From: Radiobacillus kanasensis
GTDB lineage: Bacteria; Bacillota; Bacilli; Bacillales; Amphibacillaceae
Length of the DNA: 64,000 nt
Assembly: GCF_021049245.1 (NCBI RefSeq)
Contig: NZ_CP088020.1
Coordinates: 1,122,001-1,186,000 of the forward strand
Direction: 5' to 3'
The notes beneath the pieces were generated by a model, which saw only the letters and a list, made by a program, of their open reading frames with translations, ran no database searches and was not told the DNA's origin. Within the stretch, counting starts at the first letter, position 1; each line of letters starts with the position of its first letter. A program made the position numbers and the translations under genes. This document shows, in pieces, positions 51,731 through 60,541 of the stretch.

Positions 51731-51911
51731 GCGCTCCGGCAGAATACTCCGCTTTCCGCGGGCACGGCCTCAGCTTCCTCGGAAGAAACCCACTTCCTTG
51801 AAAAAGAAACCCGCTTTTTCTGCGTGCGATGTTTATTCTAAGAAGCTTTCCTTGTCCTGTGGGATCTTCGGCTCGCGCTGTTCCCACAGGAGTCTCCGTA
51901 TTCTGCCTACG
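51731..51911. repeat. Palindromic intergenic repeat, copy 1
   Basis: A GC-richer block bounded by GGCAGAATAC (51738-51747) and its complement GTATTCTGCC (51898-51907). It contains a strong hairpin TCCTGTGGGA...TTCCCACAGGA (51855-51891) and CGCTTTCCGCGGGCACGGCC (51750-51769). The pattern resembles dispersed non-coding repeats of Bacillaceae. ORFs here are fortuitous. Confidence 0.7.
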
Positions 51912-53822: not shown

Positions 53823-54191
53823 ATGAATACACATCTACATATTACCTCTTGGGTATTAGCGATTATTTTGTTACTTGTAGCTTTATCTTTTTATAAAAAA
53901 GATAATCAAAAAGTCGGCAAAATTTTACACATGATTTTACGATTAGACTACTTATTGATTCTGTATTCCGGTGGAGCATTATTAACAGGTTATTTTCAAA
54001 CAGGAGAAATGCTGCCAGAGGTCATTACTAAAGTATTAGCAGGTATTTGGGTAATCGCTGCAGTAGAAATGGTACTAACAAAGACAGCGAAGAATAAGCC
54101 AGTTCGTGGAACGTGGATTCAGTTTGCTATAGCTTTAGTGCTTGTGTTAGCACTAGGATTCGGCCGTTTACCGTTAGGTTTATTACCTTAA
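53823..54191 (+). CDS. yisL: DUF1516 membrane protein YisL
   Basis: A 122-residue protein with four helices (HITSWVLAIILLLVALSFY, DYLLILYSGGALLTGYF and two more), a UPF0344/DUF1516 member. Function unknown. ATG follows AAGGAGG. In B. subtilis yisL also lies between gerP and asnO. Confidence 0.88.
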   Translation: MNTHLHITSWVLAIILLLVALSFYKKDNQKVGKILHMILRLDYLLILYSGGALLTGYFQTGEMLPEVITKVLAGIWVIAAVEMVLTKTAKNKPVRGTWIQFAIALVLVLALGFGRLPLGLLP

Positions 54192-54489: not shown

Positions 54490-56346
54490 ATGTGTGGAAT
54501 TACCGGTTGGGTTGATTTCAATCGTGATTTATCCAAAGAAACTTCCAATATCCGAAAGATGTCGGACGCGATTAAACATAGAGGACCAGATGCGTATGGG
54601 GAATGGATCGAAAAAGATTATGCATTTGGACACCGACGCCTGATTGTAGTAGACCCAGACGGTGGAAAACAACCGATGGAATGTACCGTCGAGGACGACA
54701 GTTTTGTTCTTGTTTATAATGGTGAATTATATAATACAGAAGACATTCGGAAAGAACTACTTAATTTGGGATGGACGTTTAACGGACATTCCGATACAGA
54801 AGTGTTATTGAAAAGCTATGCACAGTGGCGGGAGAAATGTGTGGAGAAGTTTAATGGGATCTTTGCATTCGCAATTTGGGATACGGAAAAAGAACATTTA
54901 TTTGTAGCTCGAGATCGCGTAGGGGTCAAGCCGCTTTTCTATACAGAAAAGGACGGGGGCTTTCTCTTTGGTTCTGAAATAAAAGCATTGCTCGCTCATG
55001 AAGAAATTGAGCCTGTTTTGGATAAAGATGGGTTAAGTGAAATTCTTGCATTAGGGCCTTCTCGTACGCCTGGAAATGGAGTATTTAAAGGGATTTGTGA
55101 GTTGCGTGCTGGCCATGTAGGGGTATTTGATCAAGACGGATTCCAAACGTGGCGCTATTGGAATGTCGTAAGTACAGCTCATACCGATGATGTAGAAGAA
55201 ACAGCAGATACGATCCGTTACTTGTTTCAAGATGCGGTAGAGCGACAGCTCGTGTCCGATGTACCTTTAGGAACCTTTTTGTCAGGTGGGGTAGATTCTA
55301 GTGCAATTACAGCTATTGCCGCAAATTACTTGAAAAAAGATACATCCAAGGAACAGAAGCAGTTAGACACGTTTTCCATTGACTTTGAAGATAATGATAA
55401 ATACTTTAAATCTAGTAGCTTCCAGCCAAACAGTGATCAAGATTTTCTTGGATTAGTTGTGCAAGACAATGATACGAAGCACCACAACTATGTAATGGAT
55501 AATAAGCAACTAGCTGATCTATTAAAACGAGCAGTGGAGCTTCGTGATTTACCGGGAATGGCCGATGTTGATTCTTCGCTTTACTGGTTTTGTGAGAAAA
55601 CGAAAGACGTCGTTACCGTTGCTTTGTCTGGTGAGTGTGCAGATGAAATATTTGGAGGTTACCCATGGTTTTATCGAGAAGATGATTTGCAACGAGAAGG
55701 CTTTCCTTGGATCCGCTCCTCCGAGGTTAGAGAATCTTTATTGACGGACACGTGGAAGGAAAAGCTAGATTTGCACGGCTATATGCTAACAAAGTATCAA
55801 GAAACAATCGATGAAACGCCAGAGTTTGAAGGAGATAACGAGATTGAAAGACAAAGAAGGCAAATGTTCTATTTGAATATGCATTGGTTCATGCCCACTC
55901 TGTTAGATCGAAAGGATCGCATGAGTATGGGAGCAAGCTTTGAAGCAAGGGTTCCTTTTAGTGACCATCGATTGATGGAGTATGTATGGAATATTCCGTG
56001 GGAGATGAAAACATATCGGGGTAAAGAAAAAGGCATTTTACGAAAGGCTTTAGAAGGGCTTCTTCCAGATGAAATACTATATCGGAAGAAAAGTCCGTAT
56101 CCCAAAACACATAATCCAGTTTATACCGAAGCAGTCGTCACATGGATGAATGAAATTTTAGTAGATCCAGATGCACGCTTGTTTGAAATCTTTGATCGAG
56201 AAGCGGTCATAAAGCTAGTAGAAAGCGAAGGCGAAGAAATGGAAGCGCCTTGGTTCGGACAATTGATGACAGGACCACAACTCCTTGCCCACCTTGGTCA
56301 AATCGACCACTGGTTAAGAAAATACCATGTTAAGATTGAAGCCTAG
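54490..56346 (+). CDS. asnB: Asparagine synthase (glutamine-hydrolysing), AsnB/AsnO type
   Basis: A 618-residue enzyme making asparagine from aspartate, ATP and glutamine. The N-terminal class-II amidotransferase has nucleophile Cys2 (MCGITGWVDF), RLIVVD and NGELYN. The synthetase domain has the pyrophosphate motif SGGVDSS and ALSGECADEIFGGY. Length and location match AsnO (YisO), the sporulation-associated paralog of B. subtilis. The initiating ATG must be the one placing Cys at position 2. Confidence 0.95.
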   Translation: MCGITGWVDFNRDLSKETSNIRKMSDAIKHRGPDAYGEWIEKDYAFGHRRLIVVDPDGGKQPMECTVEDDSFVLVYNGELYNTEDIRKELLNLGWTFNGHSDTEVLLKSYAQWREKCVEKFNGIFAFAIWDTEKEHLFVARDRVGVKPLFYTEKDGGFLFGSEIKALLAHEEIEPVLDKDGLSEILALGPSRTPGNGVFKGICELRAGHVGVFDQDGFQTWRYWNVVSTAHTDDVEETADTIRYLFQDAVERQLVSDVPLGTFLSGGVDSSAITAIAANYLKKDTSKEQKQLDTFSIDFEDNDKYFKSSSFQPNSDQDFLGLVVQDNDTKHHNYVMDNKQLADLLKRAVELRDLPGMADVDSSLYWFCEKTKDVVTVALSGECADEIFGGYPWFYREDDLQREGFPWIRSSEVRESLLTDTWKEKLDLHGYMLTKYQETIDETPEFEGDNEIERQRRQMFYLNMHWFMPTLLDRKDRMSMGASFEARVPFSDHRLMEYVWNIPWEMKTYRGKEKGILRKALEGLLPDEILYRKKSPYPKTHNPVYTEAVVTWMNEILVDPDARLFEIFDREAVIKLVESEGEEMEAPWFGQLMTGPQLLAHLGQIDHWLRKYHVKIEA

Positions 56347-56426: not shown

Positions 56427-56451
56427 GCTGAAGACGTGCCCGCGGAAAGCG
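56427..56451. repeat. Fragment of the palindromic intergenic repeat, copy 3
   Basis: Twenty-five bases whose reverse complement matches 51750-51774 of copy 1 (core CGCTTTCCGCGGGCACG). Probably a truncated copy. The stretch between asnB and the GH13 gene (264 nt) holds nothing else. Confidence 0.6.
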
Positions 56452-56610
56452 AACTAGTCTACGTTTTATTTTAAAAGGGACAAGTGGTCTTTGGGATTTT
56501 TATATGAATTTGTCCATTTCCAAACAATTTCCTCAGTAAAATTGACATTCCTTATTACAATAGGATAATAGGAGGGGGACAGACGTAGTAATGACGTAGG
56601 AGGAAAGAAA

Positions 56611-58122
56611 ATGAAGCGGATTTTAGCTGGAATTGTAAGTGTATCATTATTCCTTTTAAGCACAACTAGTGTTTATGGGGAAGAAAAGGTAAATAATCCA
56701 TGGACGAAGGAATCCATTTATTACATATTGATCGATCGTTTTCAAAATGCAAATTCTCAAAATGATTTTGACATAAACGTAAACAATCCAGATGCTTATC
56801 ATGGTGGGGATATTCAAGGCATCATCGAGAAATTAGACCACATTCAAGAACTCGGATTTACGACGATTAATCTGAGTCCTATCATGGCGAACTCTGAATC
56901 TGGCTATCATGGTTACTGGACGGAAGATCTCTCCCAAGTGGAAGAACATTTCGGAACATTAGATGATTTGAAGGCCCTCGTTCAAGAAGTTCATGACAGG
57001 GATATGAAGATTGTGCTTGATTTTTCACCCTGGTATGTGTCAGCCAATCATCCTTGGCTAGATGAGGATGATAAACAAGAGTGGTTTCTTCCAAATCGTA
57101 ATGTGGCTACAGACGATACATTTCAACGGCCGTGGTTAGAAGGGCTGCCGGTTTTGAATACAGATAATGAGCAGGCAGGAGAGTATGTTCTGGAAGCTGC
57201 GGAATATTGGGTAAAAGAAACGGGTGTGGATGGATACCGGTTGTACGTCGATGATGAAGTCTCTAGAACGTTCATTGCGACGCTAACCGAGCGTTTAAAA
57301 GCAGTGGATCCTTCTTTTCTAATTATGACTGAGGTGGAGAACTTAACGAACTATCCGACTGGATATGATGGAACCATTACAAAGGAGCTATACCAGTCGA
57401 TGTCCAATACTTTTCAATCGGCTGGCCAACCCTTAGAGACTTTATATGACCAGTGGATCGAATCCTCCAGCTCTATTGGAGAACAAACAGTACCAGTAGG
57501 TTTAATAGATAGCCATGAAACGGTAAGGTTCACGAGGGAAGCTGTCCTGCAAAAGCAAAACCCAATCACACGTTGGAAGCTAGCCTTGACGTTTTTATAT
57601 ACTACCCCAGTAATACCTGTTGTTTATCAAGGTACCGACATTCCAATGGACAATGGTGTCTCTGAACCAGATCATCGTGTAGCTCAACTGAACGGTGGCG
57701 ATGAAGAATTAAGGGCACATATCGAGCAATTAAATGCAATTCGAAAGCAATTCCCGGTATTAACGAACGGTAGCTTTGAAAAAGTAGCCAGTGAAGGGGC
57801 TATGAGTTTGTTTAAGCGAACTAATGGGAAGCAGACCATTTATATAGCCATTAATAACGATGTAAGTACGAAGGTAATCGAGCTCGAGGAGCTGGATAGT
57901 AACCAGCAATTAAGAGGTTTATTACTGGATAATATTGTTCGACAGTCTGACCAAGGTGTCCACAAGATTGCACTAGAGCGTGAAACTGCTGATATTTTTC
58001 TTGTGCAGGAGGATACTGGGATGAATTGGGCCTTTATTTCATTTGTAATTCTTGTTATGGCTGGGTTTATTGCCGCTGTTATCGTTTTGAGCATTCGAAG
58101 TAAAAAGAAAAACCAAGACTAA
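56611..58122 (+). CDS. Membrane-anchored GH13 (alpha-amylase-like) protein with lost catalytic residues
   Basis: A 503-residue protein with a signal peptide (about 1-23), a GH13 barrel and a C-terminal anchor (about 474-496) with a basic end (RSKKKNQD). It follows the order of the membrane-anchored amylases of Geobacillus/Anoxybacillus (AYHGGDIQGIIEKL, GYHGYWTED). The nucleophile Asp of GxRxD is Tyr212 (DGYRLY). The Asp of NHD is Glu303 (IDSHET). The N and H of DxxxNH are Trp141 and Tyr142. Only the acid/base Glu241 (MTEVEN) is kept. Hydrolysis is therefore unlikely; a binding or structural role is inferred. ATG follows GGAGGAAA. Confidence 0.85.
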   Translation: MKRILAGIVSVSLFLLSTTSVYGEEKVNNPWTKESIYYILIDRFQNANSQNDFDINVNNPDAYHGGDIQGIIEKLDHIQELGFTTINLSPIMANSESGYHGYWTEDLSQVEEHFGTLDDLKALVQEVHDRDMKIVLDFSPWYVSANHPWLDEDDKQEWFLPNRNVATDDTFQRPWLEGLPVLNTDNEQAGEYVLEAAEYWVKETGVDGYRLYVDDEVSRTFIATLTERLKAVDPSFLIMTEVENLTNYPTGYDGTITKELYQSMSNTFQSAGQPLETLYDQWIESSSSIGEQTVPVGLIDSHETVRFTREAVLQKQNPITRWKLALTFLYTTPVIPVVYQGTDIPMDNGVSEPDHRVAQLNGGDEELRAHIEQLNAIRKQFPVLTNGSFEKVASEGAMSLFKRTNGKQTIYIAINNDVSTKVIELEELDSNQQLRGLLLDNIVRQSDQGVHKIALERETADIFLVQEDTGMNWAFISFVILVMAGFIAAVIVLSIRSKKKNQD

Positions 58123-58212: not shown

Positions 58213-59073
58213 TTACTTATACGGATGATTTAAAAAGAAAATGGCAATTGTTCCTGGTCCTGCATGTGCTCCAATGGAAGAGCCAACCATTTCAATATGA
58301 ATGTCATCGTTATGGAAGGTTTCTTTTATCATATCGGAGACGAGAGTGGCCGTTTCCAAGTCATCTCCATGGCTAATGCCGATTGGTTGGGTTCTCAAAT
58401 CAACCCCTCGTTCTTCCATGACCTCCAGCATTCGCTTAAATACTTTTTTAGAACCACGAATTTTTTCTAGTGGAATTAATTTTCCGTCTTCCATATGTAG
58501 CAAAGGTTTAATCTTTAGTAGAGTCCCGACAAATGCAGCTGTTTTACTCACACGGCCACCACGATATAAATATTCGAGGTCATCTACCGTGAAGATATGT
58601 TCCATATGTTCTGCATGATATTTGCTCATTTCTAATATGGAGGAGAAGTCTTTTCCTTCTTGTGCCATTTTAGCAGCACGAAGAACAACTAAACCTAACC
58701 CTAAGGAAGCGCCTTTAGTATCTATGATTTCAAATTGCCAATCCGGATAAGCTTCCTTTACTTCTTGTTCCATTAGTTTCGCGGCTTGATATGTACCTGA
58801 TAATTCAGAAGAAAAAGCGGGATAAATACAAGGTTGGTTTTGCTCTGCATATTTGGTGAAAACATCCTTAAACGTTTGTGGCGATACTTGTGAAGTTTTA
58901 GGGGCTTTTCCATTTCGCATAGCATCATATACGGTTTTTGCCGAGATAGTTTTGCCATCCTCGAAGTTTTGATCATCTAACTGTACGGTTAATGAGAGAA
59001 TATCGATATCATACTGTTTGACACTTTCTTCTCCTAAATCACACGCGGAATCTGCTAGGATTTTTACATTCAT
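58213..59073 (-). CDS. DegV-family fatty-acid-binding protein
   Basis: A 286-residue two-domain DegV protein, the FakB-type carrier that presents fatty acids to the FakA kinase for phospholipid synthesis. ADSACDLGEESVKQYDI and TSQVSPQTF (fatty-acid pocket) are typical, as is the C-terminal SSIGAHAGPGTIAIFF. ATG follows GAAGGTGAAGG. Convergent with the GH13-like gene. Corresponds by place to yitS of B. subtilis. Confidence 0.9.
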   Translation of the reverse strand: MNVKILADSACDLGEESVKQYDIDILSLTVQLDDQNFEDGKTISAKTVYDAMRNGKAPKTSQVSPQTFKDVFTKYAEQNQPCIYPAFSSELSGTYQAAKLMEQEVKEAYPDWQFEIIDTKGASLGLGLVVLRAAKMAQEGKDFSSILEMSKYHAEHMEHIFTVDDLEYLYRGGRVSKTAAFVGTLLKIKPLLHMEDGKLIPLEKIRGSKKVFKRMLEVMEERGVDLRTQPIGISHGDDLETATLVSDMIKETFHNDDIHIEMVGSSIGAHAGPGTIAIFFLNHPYK

Positions 59074-59692: not shown

Positions 59693-60541
59693 ATGTTTTT
59701 ATTTGAAGTGAAACGTATAGTCGTTGTGTTGTTCGGAGCATTGTTAGGTGCGTTGTCCTTAAATTTATTTCTCATTAGTGCTAAGGTTTATGCAAGTGGA
59801 TTTACAGGGGTAGCACAGTTGACTTCGAGTATAATGAATGATTTTCTAGGTATTGAAGGGGTAAGTACTGGTATTTTATTATTTATTTTAAATATTCCGG
59901 TTGCTATCCTCGGTTGGTTTAAGGTTGGAAAGGGATTTACGATATATAGTGCCATTTCGGTTGCAGCAACTTCTGTGTTTTTAGAAATCATTCCTGTCGT
60001 ACAATTATCGGAAGATATTATTTTAAATGCTGTTTTCGGTGGTTTAATTGCTGGAATCGGTGTTGGATTTACATTGAAGTGGGGGGCCTCTACGGGAGGA
60101 CTTGATATTATCGCCATGGTGCTTTCCCGAATGAAGGATCGTCCAATAGGAAGCTTTTTTATGGTGATTAACGGTATCATCATTGCATTAGCCGGAATCA
60201 TTTATGAACCGGAAAATGCCTTATATACATTGGTAACATTATATGTAACGACCCGTGTCATCGATGCCATTCATACGCGTCATGAAAAAGTAACCGCGAT
60301 GATTGTGACAAGAGAAGCAGACCGCCTTCAAAAAGCGATTCACGATACGATGGTTCGAGGAATCACCATTTTACCAGCAAGAGGTGCCTACACAAAAGAA
60401 GACAAGGATATGATGGTCCTTGTTATTACAAGGTATGAATTGTATGACTTAGAACGGATTATTAAAGAAGTAGACCCAAATGCGTTTACGAATGTTGTTC
60501 AGACCACGGGAATATTCGGTTTCTTCAGAAGAAATGATTAA
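59693..60541 (+). CDS. yitT: YitT-family membrane protein
   Basis: A 282-residue protein with about five helices (YitT_membrane, DUF161) and a C-terminal cytoplasmic DUF2179 domain (KVTAMIVTREADRLQKAIHDTMVRGITILPARGAYTKEDKDMMVLVITRYE). Transport function is suspected but unproven. ATG follows AAGGAGGGC. A nearby degV matches the B. subtilis yitS-yitT order. Confidence 0.9.
   Translation: MFLFEVKRIVVVLFGALLGALSLNLFLISAKVYASGFTGVAQLTSSIMNDFLGIEGVSTGILLFILNIPVAILGWFKVGKGFTIYSAISVAATSVFLEIIPVVQLSEDIILNAVFGGLIAGIGVGFTLKWGASTGGLDIIAMVLSRMKDRPIGSFFMVINGIIIALAGIIYEPENALYTLVTLYVTTRVIDAIHTRHEKVTAMIVTREADRLQKAIHDTMVRGITILPARGAYTKEDKDMMVLVITRYELYDLERIIKEVDPNAFTNVVQTTGIFGFFRRND

Follow-up and report, generated by a model that had tools for sequence, protein, structure and literature searches.

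A membrane-tethered amylase ortholog, apparently orphaned from its operon and stripped of its catalytic residues, that may be kept for non-catalytic partner binding

What keeps a secreted, amylase-like protein in a genome once its catalytic residues have gone? The question is raised by a gene in the window (the whole stretch of 64,000 nucleotides analysed here) whose open reading frame encodes 503 amino acids from an ATG start (Table 1). By profile, the protein has the alpha-amylase barrel of the GH13 fold family, with Pfam matches to PF00128 (residues 39-348) and PF22026 (residues 387-463). The nearest solved structures are an Anoxybacillus amylase (5a2b, E 7.4e-116) and the Geobacillus amylase GTA (4e2o, E 1.1e-106), in agreement with a preliminary description that had proposed a membrane-anchored amylase fold of the Geobacillus/Anoxybacillus type. 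The best PDB matches (5a2b, 5a2a, 5a2c and 4e2o) place GH13_45 as the closest subfamily. A scan against NCBIfam returned 38 families below E 0.01, and the 25 matches listed were all far under the cut-offs.

The predicted model retains the fold with high confidence. The N-terminus is hydrophobic, and a helix at residues 473-502 (hydropathy maximum 2.99, tail net charge +3) supplies the C-terminal membrane segment and aromatic tail that mark GH13_45; the signal peptide, barrel and anchor described earlier thus all stand. About five aromatic residues per tail are found in all three protein groups compared. The strong ribosome site and the terminator described with them are also present, the latter with a folding energy of -22 kcal/mol over a 58-nt stretch; it is absent from a simple terminator scan because the loop limit of that scan is 8. 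Pfam likewise bears out the location between an asparagine synthase and a DegV gene. Neighbour names such as yisL go beyond the Pfam family assignments.

Table 1. Features of the gene and its surroundings in the window
Feature	Position	Strand	Basis
DUF1516 protein gene, yisL-like, conserved upstream neighbour	53823..54191	+	Pfam PF07457 E 1e-32; synteny
Asparagine synthase gene (asnO/asnB), upstream flank of the putative old operon	54490..56346	+	PF00733 E 8.5e-100
Promoter-like TTGACA-N16-GATAAT	56542..56569	+	11/12 consensus matches; sits where malG ends in intact operons
Ribosome-binding site AGGAGG	56598..56603	+	Read from sequence
GH13_45-derived protein without catalytic triad	56611..58122	+	Pfam, structure alignment, family alignment
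Signal peptide, residues 1-23	56611..56679	+	Hydrophobic N-terminus; cleavage site placed by eye
(beta/alpha)8 barrel with short domain B, residues 28-386	56692..57768	+	
W141-Y142 replacing region I Asn-His	57031..57036	+	Alignment to 5a2b/4e2o and relatives
Y212 replacing Asp nucleophile, then V213	57244..57246	+	Alignment
E241, acid/base position	57331..57333	+	Alignment
H302-E303 replacing region IV His-Asp	57514..57519	+	Alignment
Domain C, residues 387-468	57769..58014	+	PF22026; entropy shift vs triad-intact relatives
Juxtamembrane G-x-N-W motif, C-terminal membrane anchor and basic tail, residues 469-503	58015..58119	+	
Stem-loop terminator, overlaps stop codon	58108..58147	+	z -5.97; 0/200 shuffles fold as well
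DegV-family gene, downstream flank of the putative old operon	58213..59073	-	Pfam PF02645 E 8.9e-89
yitT-family membrane protein gene, downstream flank	59693..60541	+	Pfam PF02588 E 6.8e-59

Two observations on the neighbourhood can be recorded here. The DUF1516 and YitT proteins belong to conserved families of no assigned function that flank the gene, and as such are candidate partners. The gap before the gene holds, at 56436-56452, a repeat word, GTGCCCGCGGAAAGCGA, that recurs at 51749-51765 with one mismatch at the second place; its 15-base core has 34 copies in the genome against 0 for a reversed control, as expected of an interspersed repeat.

Alignment to the solved structures confirms the substitutions reported at Trp141-Tyr142, Tyr212 and Glu303 and the retention of Glu241. 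Where GH13 enzymes have an Asp nucleophile, a Glu acid/base and an Asp stabiliser, the window protein therefore carries Y212, E241 and E303; R210, H302 and the residues GYHGYW are also retained. A same-genus relative with 71% identity has W141, Y142, Y212 and E303 in common with it but differs in carrying Asp at 241. Even between the two genomes of the genus compared, then, none of the triad residues is fixed. Across 88 triad-less rows, position 241 is D in 55, E in 13, S in 5, N in 5, T in 4, K in 3 and G in 2, with one gap. Further signatures of GH13_45 have changed as well. The Trp pair of helix alpha-3 reads Y199-W200 (WW in 43 of 52 triad-intact rows, 'intact' here meaning the three triad residues only; YW with 33 and FW with 29 lead the 68 triad-less family rows), and the LPDlx of region V, with LPD in 52/52 intact rows, reads LPVLN. 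A strongly diverged type at the same locus (L216 from Salimicrobium halophilum, L274 and L275) carries Pro, Lys and Asp at the three catalytic positions; despite this, the membrane anchor is well kept in L274 and L275.

Comparison with relatives establishes that the loss extends far beyond one genome. Of the 159 genomes in the family to which the window's genome belongs, 130 have a match to the protein at E 1e-70 or better, for 137 rows in total, and the triad is absent in 101 and present in 5 of the 106 rows checked. These comprise 73 rows first taken (68 triad-less, 5 intact) and 33 later ones, all triad-less, that stand outside the operon/triad, tree, dN/dS, entropy and anchor tables. The loci were selected by similarity to the window protein, and to them were added 60 hand-picked order-level matches across genera (several genera repeatedly) and 7 outgroup loci. 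Among named records, triad-less proteins occur in Aquibacillus, Virgibacillus, Oceanobacillus, Lentibacillus, Ornithinibacillus, Gracilibacillus and Sediminibacillus, and triad-bearing ones in Pontibacillus, Sutcliffiella, Geobacillus and Metabacillus. Sequencing or assembly errors in the window's genome have next to no probability as an explanation and are already refuted by the shared substitution states, since all four are common to the same-genus genome and the triad is missing in 101 of the 106 family rows checked; the isolated errors that the preliminary description had named as a danger to its reading are thereby disposed of. Triad loss is clade-wide, and even Glu241 is Asp in the same-genus relative.

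The place and order of the neighbours are shared as well. Homologs at the asnB-degV locus, which the preliminary description had recommended collecting, proved to be the rule: yisL, asnO, degV and/or yitT adjoin 67 of the 68 long-flank triad-less family rows, the exception being L099. The five intact family rows sit elsewhere, next to maltodextrin genes. The likely origin of the gene as a remnant of a maltodextrin operon was beyond the reach of that description. As a side observation, 12 of 13 family genomes without a match to the terminal oxidase COX1 also have no such gene, compared with 17 of 146 genomes with COX1 (129/146 have it), nine of the gene-less genomes having been identified by elimination and relatedness being uncorrected. 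A link to aerobic respiration was considered and nothing was drawn from these counts, since the absences cluster in few genera.

The 60 loci from other families of the order probably show what the locus once was, namely a maltodextrin operon. At L220, where the triad is intact, the order is rocD-yisL-npl-malE-malF-malG-AMY-gh31-malR-degV-yitT, and L257, L262 and L265 have a maltodextrin operon between asnO and degV-yitT, again with the triad intact. At L130, Pfam identifies the operon parts: a maltogenic-type GH13 enzyme, a binding protein, two subunits of a permease and a regulator of the LacI type. The proteins of the window's clade are orthologs of the GH13_45 amylase of this operon (npl-malEFG-amylase-malR). 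Several loci appear to be intermediates. L219 has lost malEFG with the triad intact and malR still downstream, and the last 20 malG codons lie directly upstream of its amylase gene (80% identity, E 3e-4). Similarly, L237 retains 43 residues from the end of malG (46% identity, E 0.001), followed by an amylase whose acid/base is altered, and L225, which has lost the triad, retains malR. In L067 and L240, a GH31 glucosidase gene (gh31) lies directly downstream of the triad-less gene, apparently a pair surviving from the old operon.

Over 140 proteins, the triad is intact in 49 of the 51 with malEFG nearby and lost in 86 of the 89 without (Fisher 1.6e-31, relatedness ignored), where malEFG means two of the three genes on one stretch of up to about 18 kb and can go undetected because contig ends may cut the stretch. 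The exceptions are L258 and L270 (operon without triad) and L219, L230 and L239 (triad without malEFG). A quick tree, with SH-aLRT values in place of bootstrap and the catalytic columns excluded, requires seven state changes, six of them on well-supported branches; it does not distinguish gain from loss. The window's clade of 69 rows is entirely triad-less (SH-aLRT 99), and L219 is sister to 8 triad-less rows (SH-aLRT 99). The changes are read as losses because of the operon, not because of the tree, and the operon state would be the ancestral one. When relatedness is counted, of 6 independent pairs a mean of 3.6 agree, 0.1 disagree and 2.3 show no difference (median p 0.125), so the association between operon and triad is suggestive as a general rule, not proven.

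The promoter-like site upstream of the window gene has counterparts in relatives. TTGAC-N16/17-ATAAT-like elements precede 45 of the 68 triad-less family rows and 13 of the 20 other triad-less rows, against 1.0 and 0.2 in shuffles. The spacing is 16 nt in 57 of 58 such elements, and most lie 61-75 nt before the start. The same search in intact rows gave 14 of 52 (0.8 in shuffles); inspected by eye, 13 of these 14 matches fall on the 3' end of malG, where the codons for LTAGGTKG and the stop spell TTGACG-N16-GATAAT. In the orphan gene, then, the element occupies the place at which malG ended. Resemblance between spacer letters and malG ends exceeds shuffles in 8 rows of the group f7 (35 of 2000 shuffles as high), in 4 of 10 other triad-less rows (0/2000) and in 11 window-side Y212 rows (3/2000), fractions that are not probabilities, the rows being related. 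There is no signal in 35 H/Q212 rows (1607/2000 shuffles as high) or over all 46 family rows together (401/2000). Derivation of the promoter from a malG stump is thus supported by the letters at the intermediate loci; for the window it is no more than plausible.

Two further searches of the upstream region concerned regulation. Matches to a CRE consensus within 2 mismatches occur upstream of 18% of the 68 triad-less rows and in 13% of shuffles, which is no signal, and catabolite-response regulation was rejected as this frequency is near shuffle level. In the H/Q212 sub-clade (L075, L079, L080, L092 and other loci), an element TATGAAg..TTTTcaACAAT is conserved about 14 nt before the -35 hexamer; being nearly private to the gene, it looks like a regulator site. 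Among 155 family genomes, the pattern TTTTCAACAAT-N10-14-TTGACT has 27 sites in 27 genomes (5 for a reversed control), 22 of them immediately before the gene and 5 in other places (G073, G111, G116, G157 and G159). Since the off-gene sites are no more numerous than the control, no regulon for the element was found among these genomes. A stricter form of the pattern, sought in 60 genomes, gave 6 sites, every one of them at the gene, and 0 in the control; both forms are absent from the window's own genome.

Is the gene then simply decaying? The comparison of dN/dS recommended earlier points to purifying selection, with 0.064-0.183 in 9 triad-less pairs and 0.061-0.075 in 3 intact pairs with dS below 1, the pairs having been picked by hand (16 triad-less, 10 intact) and those with saturated dS, the window pair included, yielding no ratio. 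The triad-less values are about twice the intact ones, so that selection on the triad-less proteins, as far as codon comparison goes, is purifying yet somewhat relaxed overall. A functionless relic on its way to a pseudogene would be consistent with this doubling, with a vanished operon, with catalytic sites that drift towards no fixed replacement and with the 29 of 159 family genomes that have no such gene, which show it to be dispensable in some. Such a relic is nevertheless distinctly unlikely, as most family genomes do retain a match, no internal stops occur in the family rows listed, dN/dS is far below 1, the signal, domain C and anchor are kept and, in one sub-clade, a nearly gene-specific upstream element is conserved. 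Comparison bears out the anchor: the C-terminal membrane segment is kept in 88 of 88 triad-less rows, and the positive tail and the hydrophobic N-terminus in 87 of 88 each.

Constraint has moved from the barrel to domain C and the anchor, as judged by alignment entropy. Relative to the 52 intact rows, the triad-less family rows differ by +0.78 bits in barrel and domain B, -0.38 in domain C and -0.66 in the tail. The shift persists after thinning to equal numbers, even though the triad-less set is the more divergent (mean identity 43% vs 55% for intact rows at 70% thinning). The tail residues G470, N472, W473 and F486 are each present in 68/68 triad-less family rows; W473 also occurs in nearby proteins with the triad intact (L135, L217-L219). 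The anchor motif has thus been kept and was not gained after the loss.

These patterns bear on the proposal, made in the preliminary description, of selection for a non-hydrolytic role such as glycan binding. Maintenance outside canonical hydrolysis is upheld by the clade-wide loss and the low dN/dS; glycan binding through the old cleft fares less well. A cell-surface protein or sensor that binds alpha-glucans with the old cleft or with surface sites would fit the confidently predicted fold and the window-side branch, which retains more cleft residues than the remainder of its clade, and surface starch sites are discussed for GH13_45 in the available text of PMC11448133. It is unlikely all the same, because cleft and domain-B positions are among those losing most conservation and because the window-type protein is the sole PF00128 match (E 1e-10; only this family was sought) in 24 of the 130 gene-bearing genomes in the survey of 159, all 24 triad-less (G006, G011, G013, G052, G053, G054, G074, G079, G082, G084, G087, G092, G098, G121, G135-G141, G165, G166 and G171). 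A role in GH13-type alpha-glucan breakdown is hard to see in those genomes. The window's genome encodes two further PF00128 proteins, so its own content is no proof of independence from alpha-glucans.

The protein could also have kept a weak enzymatic activity, hydrolysing or transferring alpha-glucans through E241 together with water or a non-canonical nucleophile, in the manner of BmaN1 from Bacillus megaterium NL3. Both BmaN1 and the window protein are triad-less GH13_45 derivatives, and according to the parts of the two reports available, BmaN1 is active: 8.4 U/mg when partially purified (PMC5347038), 1.54 U/mg for the refolded full-length protein and 1.69 U/mg for a truncated, soluble one (PMC11448133). 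It has Lys at the nucleophile position, Glu, and His for the third acid, and the adjacent Asp203 was proposed as nucleophile (PMC11448133); the corresponding residues of the window protein are Tyr followed by Val, Glu and Glu. One locus from another genus, L276, has K202-D203, Glu, His and the BmaN1 anchor letters quoted in the available text of PMC11448133, and adjoins asnO and malR. As it belongs to a different triad-less group of the tree from the window, its signature and locus suggest that BmaN1 probably arose separately by the same process. Together with the E241, R210, H302 and GYHGYW that the window protein retains, these points favour continued catalysis. The position of Asp203 is Val213 in the window protein, however, and the five residues most often found there (61 of 68 triad-less family rows counted) do not include Asp; position 241 holds seven residue types, and variability among the triad-less proteins extends to the LPD motif and to many positions of the cleft. 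We therefore regard an enzymatic role as improbable. Amylase activity was among the findings that the preliminary description held against its own reading. We infer that the window protein no longer breaks down starch in the GH13 manner; a full loss of activity is less certain, given that a triad-less relative is reported active.

The explanation that we favour, at slightly better than an even chance, is that of an amylase ortholog orphaned from its operon, catalytically stripped and membrane-tethered, and kept for non-catalytic partner binding. A gene for a membrane-anchored GH13_45 alpha-amylase would have begun as part of a maltodextrin uptake operon, placed between asnO and degV-yitT as it is in other Bacillaceae. 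Transporter and helper genes would then have been lost from the locus while the amylase gene stayed in place, and a promoter-like site may have arisen where malG used to end. The amylase would have lost its catalytic residues and been retained as a secreted, membrane-tethered protein, whose ectodomain could act through domain C and the juxtamembrane and transmembrane segment. In the manner of 4F2hc/rBAT, it might bind and steady a partner that resides in the cytoplasmic membrane or next to it. Partner binding is our best guess, by reason of this analogy and of the location of the constraint. A broader account is doubtful as a whole: that Bacillaceae have at least six times kept an anchored amylase without catalysis, mostly at the loss of the operon, and that the window's clade has a promoter made from a malG stump and a membrane partner like that of 4F2hc/rBAT.

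The triad-less proteins match amylase models and would readily pass for alpha-amylases, so that, if the favoured explanation is true, many amylase calls in the window's family are misleading. The series of loci would also form a stepwise record of an enzyme turning into a non-enzyme, from an intact operon (L220) through operon loss with the enzyme intact (L219) and enzyme loss with operon parts left (L225, L240 and L067) to the orphan of the window. Furthermore, it would offer a testable case of coding sequence turned promoter.

Triad-less GH13_45 proteins are already in print. Sarian 2017, in the text available, describes a BmaN1-like group with an aberrant triad and a smaller group with irregular substitutions of the whole triad (PMC5347038), and the aberrant subgroup is restated in the accessible part of a 2024 subfamily paper. 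In the irregular group (Nos 28-34), all triad positions are substituted without regularity and the proteins are nearer to BaqA than to BmaN1; the window protein fits this text when compared by description only, and context, selection and role are not treated in that part of the source (PMC5347038). The evolutionary story was not found in the literature examined: the available parts of the GH13_45 and BmaN1 literature, including PMC5347038, PMC11448133 and PMC11239784, hold no account of an operon origin, a role, repeated triad loss or retention without other GH13 genes. Compared with the GH13_45 amylases of the BaqA, GTA and Anoxybacillus type, the window protein is without the triad, the region I Asn-His, LPD and the Trp pair, and its gene lies outside any maltodextrin operon. 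It could make a case for a role of a secreted, tethered GH13 fold without sugar cutting, as with 4F2hc and rBAT. The GH13-like ectodomains of these eukaryotic proteins serve amino-acid transporters; their transporter partner is known, and their span is N-terminal where that of the window protein is C-terminal. The available text on these SLC3 heavy chains describes a GH13-type ectodomain carried on a single membrane span (PMC8537225), an architecture like that of the window protein.
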